Origin: Thioalkalivibrio sp. ALJ3
GTDB lineage: Bacteria > Pseudomonadota > Gammaproteobacteria > Ectothiorhodospirales > Ectothiorhodospiraceae
DNA length: 64,000 nt
NCBI RefSeq assembly: GCF_000377205.1
Contig: NZ_KB897905.1
Span: 1 to 64,000 of the forward strand
Direction: 5' to 3'
A model generated the notes under the pieces. That model did no database searches and was not told where the DNA came from. It saw nothing but the letters and a program-made list of their open reading frames with translations. The translations under genes were made by a program, and so were the position numbers. Below, in pieces: positions 46,545 to 48,534 of this stretch. How positions within the stretch are numbered: position 1 is the first letter of the stretch; each line of letters starts with the position of its first letter.

Positions 46545-47930
46545 TTACACCGGCATGTGTGCGCTCAGCAGCCAGGCGGCCATGCCAAAATACACGGCCA
46601 AGCCGGTGAAATCCTTGATGGTGGTGATGAACGGATCCGCGCCAGGTGCATGATCCACGCCGACCTTCAGCAGCACCCAGGGCAGCAGGAAGCCCAGGAT
46701 CGACGCGGTGAACACCGAGACGAACAGCGCCACGCCAACCACGATGCCCAGCTCCGGGATGCCGTTCGGCGCACCTTGCCAGAAGTGGGCGATGGTACCG
46801 GCGATGACGGCCATCACAACCCCCATGGCCAGGCCGACGCCCCCCTCGCGGACCAGATGCGCGCGGAAGAAGCGTCCGAGGTTGATATGCCCCAGGGCGA
46901 GCCCGCGGGCGAAGATCGTGGTCGACTGCGTGCCCACGTTGCCGCCCATGTCCATCACCAGCGGGATGAAGATGGCCAGCGCGACCACCGCCGCCAGGGT
47001 GTCCTCGAAGAAGTCGATCACCCCGCCCACGGCCAGACCGCCAGCCAGCGTCACCATCAGGAAGGCCATGCGCACCTTGACCGCATAGCCGATCCCGCCG
47101 GAGGTCAGCTTCTCCGAGCGCACCACATCCTTGTGGTGCAGCAGGTCTCCAATCCCCGCCTTCTTGTAGAAGTCCTCCGAGGTGTCTTCTTCAAGTACGT
47201 CCATCGCGTCATCGATGCGCAGCACACCCACCAGCACGCCATCGGCATCCACCACCGGCAGGTACGGCAGATCCGTGCGCTGCAGCAGGCGGGCGGCCTC
47301 GACCTTGTCACCATCGGGCGTGGTGCAGAAGTCCTCCAGCTCGATCAGCTCACCAACCGCCTGGCCGGGCTCCGCGCGGAACATGCGGCCCAGGCGCACC
47401 AGCCCCTGGTAGTGATGGTCGCGATCGGTGATCAGCAGCGCCGCCCCGACATCGTCCGGCATGTTGCGATCCCCACGCAGGCGGGTGGTGACCTCACCAA
47501 CGGTTTCTTCCGGGGTCACCCAGAACACCGGGCGGCGCATCACACGGGCCACGGTGTCCTCATCCTGCCGCCACAGGGCGCGCACCTTGTCGCGCTTGGC
47601 CCCCGGCAGGGCATTCAGCAGGTCGTCCGCCAGGGACTTGCCCACCAGGGTCAGGGACCGTGCCAGGGTGTAGGCCGGCAGGCTCTGGACCAGCTCGCGG
47701 GCCTCCGGCTCGGGCATGTGCTCGAACAGGATCGCCTGCTCTTCGTCATCCATCGCCAGGAAGATGGCGCGGCGCTCATTGGTGTCCACACCCTCCAGGA
47801 TCACCCAGCGCGAACGCGGGTCCAGTTCCGACAGGCGGTTGGCGGTGATGGCCGGGACTGGATGGATCATCTCGTCGCGGGCAGCCCCCACGTCGCCGGC
47901 ATGAATCATTTCCAGGATCTTGTCGTTCAT
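46545..47930 (-). CDS. mgtE: Magnesium transporter MgtE
   Basis: This 461-residue protein has the MgtE layout. An N-terminal helical superhelix domain covers about residues 5-125 and a CBS-domain pair about 130-250. About five transmembrane helices form the C-terminal pore, with PLVMDMGGNVGTQSTT as the conserved pore segment. MgtE is a magnesium-gated channel in the inner membrane; the CBS and N domains close the pore when cytosolic Mg2+ is high. AAGGAG lies 8 bases before the ATG. The gene is preceded by a short leader ORF and RNA hairpins described separately. Confidence 0.96.
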   Translation of the reverse strand: MNDKILEMIHAGDVGAARDEMIHPVPAITANRLSELDPRSRWVILEGVDTNERRAIFLAMDDEEQAILFEHMPEPEARELVQSLPAYTLARSLTLVGKSLADDLLNALPGAKRDKVRALWRQDEDTVARVMRRPVFWVTPEETVGEVTTRLRGDRNMPDDVGAALLITDRDHHYQGLVRLGRMFRAEPGQAVGELIELEDFCTTPDGDKVEAARLLQRTDLPYLPVVDADGVLVGVLRIDDAMDVLEEDTSEDFYKKAGIGDLLHHKDVVRSEKLTSGGIGYAVKVRMAFLMVTLAGGLAVGGVIDFFEDTLAAVVALAIFIPLVMDMGGNVGTQSTTIFARGLALGHINLGRFFRAHLVREGGVGLAMGVVMAVIAGTIAHFWQGAPNGIPELGIVVGVALFVSVFTASILGFLLPWVLLKVGVDHAPGADPFITTIKDFTGLAVYFGMAAWLLSAHMPV

Positions 47931-48123
47931 TGCAATGCTCCTTGTGCTTAGAAAATCAAAAACGCACGCGGGGCATTACAAAAGACAAAAGAATCCCGTG
48001 ACCGCTGGTGGCGGTCTTTTACAAAACCCCCATCAGCGAGACAAACAATCTTTTACTTTTCTCACTGCCCCGCAGTGATACGCCAGGTCTAGACCCGGGG
48101 TCGTCGTCATCAGGCGCTGGCAT
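47931..48123 (-). promoter_or_regulatory. mgtE leader RNA with alternative stem-loops
   Basis: On the minus strand the leader holds three local hairpins. One is the near-palindrome GGTCTAGACC inside the leader ORF (48086-48095). The second is TCACTGC/GCAGTGA at 48062-48078, with a 3-base loop. The third is GACCGC/GCGGTC at 48000-48016, followed by a T-rich stretch after 8 bases. In addition GCGGGGCA (48073-48066), overlapping the second hairpin, is perfectly complementary to TGCCCCGC (47975-47968) nearer mgtE. The two pairings exclude each other, as expected for an attenuator or translation switch. Confidence 0.55.
48019..48123 (-). CDS. Putative leader peptide of mgtE (MgtL-like, 34 residues)
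   Basis: An ATG at 48123 follows a perfect AGGAGG with a 5-base spacing and opens a 34-codon ORF. The peptide starts MPAPDDDDPGSRPG and continues with a basic segment (SEKSKRLF). Early runs of Asp mixed with Pro are known to destabilise the translating ribosome when Mg2+ is low; the E. coli MgtL leader of mgtA uses this property to sense magnesium. The ORF ends 88 bases before mgtE on the same strand. Sensing of magnesium during its translation is inference from position and composition. The frame is open further upstream to 48321, but the ideal ribosome site supports this start. Confidence 0.6.
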   Translation of the reverse strand: MPAPDDDDPGSRPGVSLRGSEKSKRLFVSLMGVL

Positions 48124-48534
48124 GGTGGCCTCCTGCTGGGTGTTTATGGGTGTAATCCACTCCGCTGCGCGCACAGCAACGCACGCACCGGCCCGAAATC
48201 CGGGCAGAGGCGGAACATCATCGAATGGCATGGGACCGCGCGCCACGCACACGGGCGGGCGCAGGACGGGCAGGGCTAGGGAGTCGCCCGCAAGGGGCGC
48301 AAGGGGGAAGCGATCTGTCACCCCCCGGAGTCACACATATCGCTGACACCGGGGGACACCACCGAACTACCGGGTGGCGGGACCCCGCTGGCAACGATAT
48401 GCACGCTCGTACCGGCCACCGGCCCGACGATCATGCATCCATCGACAACAGTCCATTGACAGACCTCTGCTACTCAAGATGGGCGCGATTGTAGTGACGC
48501 ACGTTCACTTTCGCAACCCCACACATAAACATTT
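48124..48534. other. Intergenic region upstream of the mgtE leader
   Basis: These 411 bases lie between the end of the chemoreceptor gene and the mgtE leader ORF. They should contain the mgtE promoter, which is leftward; TTGCTG near 48178 followed by a TTACAC-like element is a weak candidate. No convincing protein-coding frame is present. No clear terminator for the chemoreceptor gene was recognised. Confidence 0.45.

Follow-up and report, generated by a model that had tools for sequence, protein, structure and literature searches.

A short open reading frame (ORF) with an acidic and proline-rich start precedes the magnesium channel gene mgtE in Thioalkalivibrio and in more distant bacteria, the hosts being soda-lake and purple sulfur bacteria, and it is probably a Mg2+-responsive leader peptide gene of the MgtL type, whose product would destabilize the ribosome that makes it and thereby control mgtE in cis. 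As judged from the comparison of sequences, this ORF is conserved and coding, its start is under selection at the level of the peptide, and its link to mgtE is exclusive in everything scanned.

Results

In the window, by which we mean the whole stretch of 64,000 nt that was analysed, the leader ORF (MPAPDDDDPGSRPGVSLRGSEKSKRLFVSLMGVL, 34 codons) occupies positions 48019..48123 of the minus strand, with its ATG at 48123-48121 and the stop codon TAA at 48021-48019. An AGGAGG ribosome-binding site (48129..48134, minus), invariant in the clade A alignment, is followed by 5 nt (CCACC) and then by the ATG, and the stop codon lies 88 nt from the ATG of mgtE (47930) on the same strand. Codons 2-9 (48097..48120, minus) encode the segment PAPDDDDP, and the aligned start of 17 sequences reads MP..DDPG. 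The original prediction had described a 34-codon ORF that begins MPAPDDDDP, has AGGAGG at a spacing of five bases, and ends 88 bases upstream of mgtE, and every one of these details was borne out when the sequence was re-read. The further claim that such an arrangement is unlikely to arise by chance was also upheld, since dinucleotide-shuffling the upstream 400 nt 20000 times never yielded an ORF as strict as this one (GGAGG 3-10 nt before the start codon, 10-60 codons, and at least six D, E, or P, three of them acidic, among residues 2-10). By the same criterion the leader is the sole ORF in the window on both strands, and the 11 matches in 1.02 Mb of other loci around mgtE homologues, again on both strands, are all mgtE leaders. 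The same frame is open farther upstream, giving a 100-aa ORF from a GTG; we rejected it as the gene because its length is not conserved, there being 8-14 open upstream codons in the relatives L033, L035, L038, and L039, and the short extension in several relatives makes the ATG behind the AGGAGG the likely start. Close relatives also conserve the stretch before the leader (window positions ~48150-48420, minus), with sequences such as TCAGCGATATGYGTGACTCCGGGGGGTGACAGA and CCCATGCCATTCGATGATATTCCGCC. It is a possible location of the promoter; a search of it for sigma-70 sites gave no good candidate, and a scan of the mgtE strand for intrinsic terminators found none.

The mgtE gene itself (46545..47930, minus) encodes a magnesium channel of 461 aa with MgtE_N, CBS, and MgtE domains. 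It is followed after 45 nt by a gene for a porin-like protein of the Gcw_chp family (Pfam PF09694; 45816..46499, minus), and a Gcw_chp-like protein also follows mgtE at L037, L040, L044, and L010. The two genes are probably one operon, combining an inner-membrane channel with an outer-membrane protein. Some peculiarities were observed around other copies: L041, L042, and L043 have a separate small gene, similar to the MgtE N domain and ending VILNHRRRG or VILNHRALMRH, 24-48 nt before the leader ORF; the Wenzhouxiangella-like L047 and L051 have an ORF of similar size before a shorter mgtE that has no N domain; and the mgtE of Halorhodospira abdelmalekii (L044, 3001-3393 and 3307-4354) is divided between two reading frames, through either an assembly frameshift or a broken gene.

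At all 18 distinct loci examined that have this mgtE subfamily, nine from Thioalkalivibrio (the window included) and nine more distant, the leader ORF is found in the same place, with a length of 29-41 codons and a distance of 75-105 nt from its stop codon to mgtE. The eight Thioalkalivibrio relatives, whose mgtE genes are 84-97% identical, have the same ORF, the same ribosome site, and the same MP..DDPG start, and the consensus start over the nine loci of the genus is MP(AP)xDDDPG, the acidic run being one residue shorter in L033 and L034. The mgtE genes of the distant set (Ectothiorhodospira, Halorhodospira, T. sulfidiphilus, T. denitrificans, and others) are 58-66% identical and of the same subfamily, and the nine leaders begin MPD[DE]P[EG]P, as in MPDDPEPEPPPSPHPLRRLRGF... 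of Ectothiorhodospira, MPDEPEPEPGPRLSRIRRERG... of Halorhodospira, MPDDPGPEQPRSLP... of T. sulfidiphilus, and MPDDPGPANAQ... of T. denitrificans. Fifteen genomes of the order carry this mgtE at full length, and every one of them (15/15) has the leader; G036 has in addition a second, partial copy, which lacks it. Both the leader and this mgtE are also present in a MAG that belongs to a different family of the class (L043 = L133). Conservation among relatives had been proposed as the check on the original prediction, and the outcome did not refute it: the ORF, its ribosome site, and its acidic/proline start are kept in all close and distant relatives whose copy of this mgtE is full-length. The original interpretation is partly supported and gains considerably in strength.

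The 47 genomes of the order that were searched with the pattern of the leader start gave seven short-ORF matches, each of them before mgtE, and the 369 genomes of the class gave two short ORFs, neither of them before mgtE, the other matches there being long coding ORFs. An extended leader pattern had no matches in 398 genomes of the phylum, and the scanned loci of Wenzhouxiangella, Halomonas/Billgrantia, Rhodobacteraceae, cyanobacteria, and Chloroflexota, where mgtE is more distant or split, showed no leader. Within everything scanned, and as far as sequence matches can tell, the leader occurs only before one mgtE subfamily.

The tandem mgtE pair has a conserved leader ORF of its own, which is strongly basic (MKRRSRSRSI(C/R)A.., MKRRTRCRSIVARP, MKRNRRSRSSQALR) and starts with TTG or ATG. 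It lies in G000:C5 upstream of 6108 (L032 ~1175-1220) and was also seen in L026, L030, L023, L138-L149, and L155-L157, with an in-frame insertion of 12 nt in L140. Having an acidic leader at one mgtE locus and a basic one at the tandem pair, a single genome thus possesses leaders of opposite charge.

The pattern of codon substitutions in the nine distant leaders indicates that translation of the ORF has persisted through evolution and that, as a peptide, only its acidic/proline start matters. For codons 2-7, pN was 0.077 and pS 0.478 (pN/pS 0.16), while for codons 10-30 the values were 0.626 and 0.632 (pN/pS ~1.0); likewise, the per-site differences at codon positions 1, 2, and 3 were 0.00, 0.09, and 0.43 in codons 2-7, and 0.65, 0.64, and 0.62 in codons 13-30. 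To judge by these substitutions, the start is under strong purifying selection and the remainder drifts freely. Aspartate and glutamate replace one another at codon 4, an exchange that keeps the charge and changes the tRNA, which favors charge over a starving tRNA as the property selected. In L033 and L036 a 1-nt deletion right after the acidic run alters the whole C-terminus and leaves the start intact, as predicted by a nascent-chain effect early in elongation and not by a peptide that functions after its release.

For the nine Thioalkalivibrio leaders two mutually exclusive RNA folds are predicted, one of which hides the mgtE ribosome site, and the energy difference between them is approximately -7 to +3 kcal/mol. 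The stem that would hold the mgtE Shine-Dalgarno sequence (AAGGAG, 47943-47938) ends at the mgtE AUG (47930..47981, minus; RNAalifold consensus, with 97.8% of cells paired). The alternative is a long-range helix with its 5' arm, GCGGGGCA, in the leader ORF (48066..48073, minus; 100% paired in nine sequences) and its 3' arm, TGCCCCGC (47968..47975, minus), overlapping the 5' arm of the mgtE-sequestering stem; this helix has one compensatory change, G-C to A-U, in L038/L039. Three local hairpins were also predicted on the same minus strand, two of them inside the leader ORF, namely CCGGGTCTAGACCTGG (48083..48098; 90% of cells paired, with one-sided changes only) and TCACTGC-GGG-GCAGTGA (48062..48078; 92% of cells paired), and one around the leader stop codon (48002..48039; 98.5% of cells paired, with double changes at two pairs). 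Pairing support for both folds is near 95-97% and covariation is thin, as the nine Thioalkalivibrio sequences differ little from one another.

For most Thioalkalivibrio leaders, the mgtE ribosome site did not clearly switch when equilibrium folding was combined with a ribosome mask. When opening energies were compared with those of shuffled leaders, the mgtE start was clearly hidden more than in the shuffles in only part of the set (L036, L042, L041, and L033), and no excess hiding was found in Ectothiorhodospira. Within the distant clade, the one RNA element shared is the hairpin GGGAGGC-GCCTCCC, downstream of the leader stop codon. An Rfam scan of the leader with E values up to 10 returned no match, including to the M-box and to the enterobacterial mgtA leader RNA.

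Discussion

We favor a ribosome-destabilizing Mg2+ leader on account of its match to MgtL and mgtQ in position, composition, selection pattern, and the function of the neighboring gene. In E. coli MgtL, the EPDP motif at residues 2-5 destabilizes the ribosome at low Mg2+, whereupon the leader RNA changes and mgtA is switched on (PMC11282234; PMC11552253), and in Salmonella the acidic residues of mgtQ free the ribosome site of mgtB (PMC8092293). By this comparison we infer that Mg2+ is the signal and ribosome drop-off the response: when free intracellular Mg2+ is low, ribosomes making MPxxDDPx would become unstable and drop off, by intrinsic ribosome destabilization, and when Mg2+ is ample they would reach the leader stop codon. 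Which of the two happens would decide the fold of the leader RNA. We propose a read-out and a direction for this switch in Thioalkalivibrio, where, after early drop-off, the 3' half of the leader ORF would pair with the strand that otherwise hides the mgtE ribosome site, so that mgtE would be translated, and where full translation would clear that half and let the mgtE-hiding stem form. Since the RNA downstream of the leader is different in the distant clade, the read-out there may be either translational or by termination of transcription.

That the RNA itself senses a small molecule or a metal, as a riboswitch to which the ORF is incidental, is a reading that we consider unlikely, even though it has a published counterpart. 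Narunsky et al. (2024) reported an 'mgtE motif' (SRC-65-1) with 32 representatives, all from Thioalkalivibrio, as a strong riboswitch candidate whose last stem, large and imperfect, has a Shine-Dalgarno sequence and AUG at its foot, and no leader ORF is mentioned in that description (PMC11109978). SRC-65-1 and the leader described here have in common the genus, the location upstream of mgtE, and, by prediction for the leader, a last stem with the ribosome site and AUG at its base, and SRC-65-1 may be this acidic leader or the leader of the tandem mgtE pair, as both could fit. The original prediction also stated that a leader of this kind was not known for an mgtE gene, and this holds in the open-access literature searched, where no paper on one was found, with the caveat that SRC-65-1 may be the same stretch of DNA. 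The high conservation of nucleotides would suit a riboswitch, as would the consensus fold with its resemblance to the published motif, and one arm of a helix predicted for Thioalkalivibrio consists of the Asp codons, so that their nucleotides could be kept for pairing. However, the nine distant loci share little RNA beyond one hairpin and yet keep the peptide start with synonymous changes, the leader matches no Rfam family, and the published motif has been reported from Thioalkalivibrio only.

Attenuation by the supply of charged tRNA for proline or aspartate, which would make the leader, for example, a proline or osmotic sensor, strikes us as quite improbable. The core proline is invariant, the hosts are halophiles, and the proline codons of the Salmonella mgtCBR leader are a reported precedent (PMC3641672). 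Nevertheless, Asp is replaced by Glu, which has another tRNA, and the Pro codons vary among CCC, CCA, and CCT and are never consecutive in the Thioalkalivibrio leaders. Very improbable in our judgment is an ORF without any sensing role, which would aid mgtE translation by coupling or re-initiation or keep the RNA free of Rho; its strong ribosome site and the limited distance to mgtE would agree with this, but selection acts only on an acidic/proline start of a kind known to destabilize ribosomes, and that distance exceeds what direct stop-start coupling would allow.

In the papers reached, ribosome-destabilizing leaders are described for enterobacterial mgtA and mgtB and perhaps for corA. With a conserved, peptide-selected leader of mgtE in haloalkaliphiles, one can test whether sensing of Mg2+ by translation itself is widespread, and the leader is also relevant to the question of whether an orphan riboswitch candidate is truly a riboswitch. 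We suggest only tentatively the wider proposition that a Mg2+ sensor based on ribosome destabilization has arisen or been kept far from the enterobacteria, on mgtE and with an unrelated RNA read-out, and that SRC-65-1 is in truth a leader peptide. If this were true, nascent-chain sensing of Mg2+ would be a general strategy and not an enterobacterial specialty.

Among the known systems, the Mg2+ riboswitch M-box (ykoK leader) is also a cis element before mgtE-type genes, and the leader described here has no M-box match in Rfam at the E values scanned. The mgtQ ORF before mgtB in Salmonella is closer, in that its acidic residues abort the ribosome, a stem hides the ribosome site of the transporter gene, and the read-out is translational, as we propose for mgtE in Thioalkalivibrio; unlike the mgtE leader, it is an internal ORF of an operon, with mgtC and mgtB on either side, it relies on Asp2 and Glu5, and it serves another transporter family. 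With the mgtL leader of mgtA in E. coli and Salmonella, the mgtE leader shares a short ORF in the leader of a Mg2+ uptake gene, early acidic and proline residues (EPDP in MgtL, DDDDP or DDPEPEP in the mgtE leaders), two competing RNA structures, which for mgtE are predicted, and, in the distant clade, an Arg-rich stretch that follows (e.g., HPLRRLRGF). It differs in that its target is the gene of the MgtE channel, whereas that of mgtL is the P-type ATPase gene mgtA, in the length of its ORF (29-41 codons), and in that its RNA is unrelated, with no Rfam match, and is found in a different order of bacteria. The mgtE leader is therefore like MgtL in its logic and is not a member of that group by descent of the RNA.
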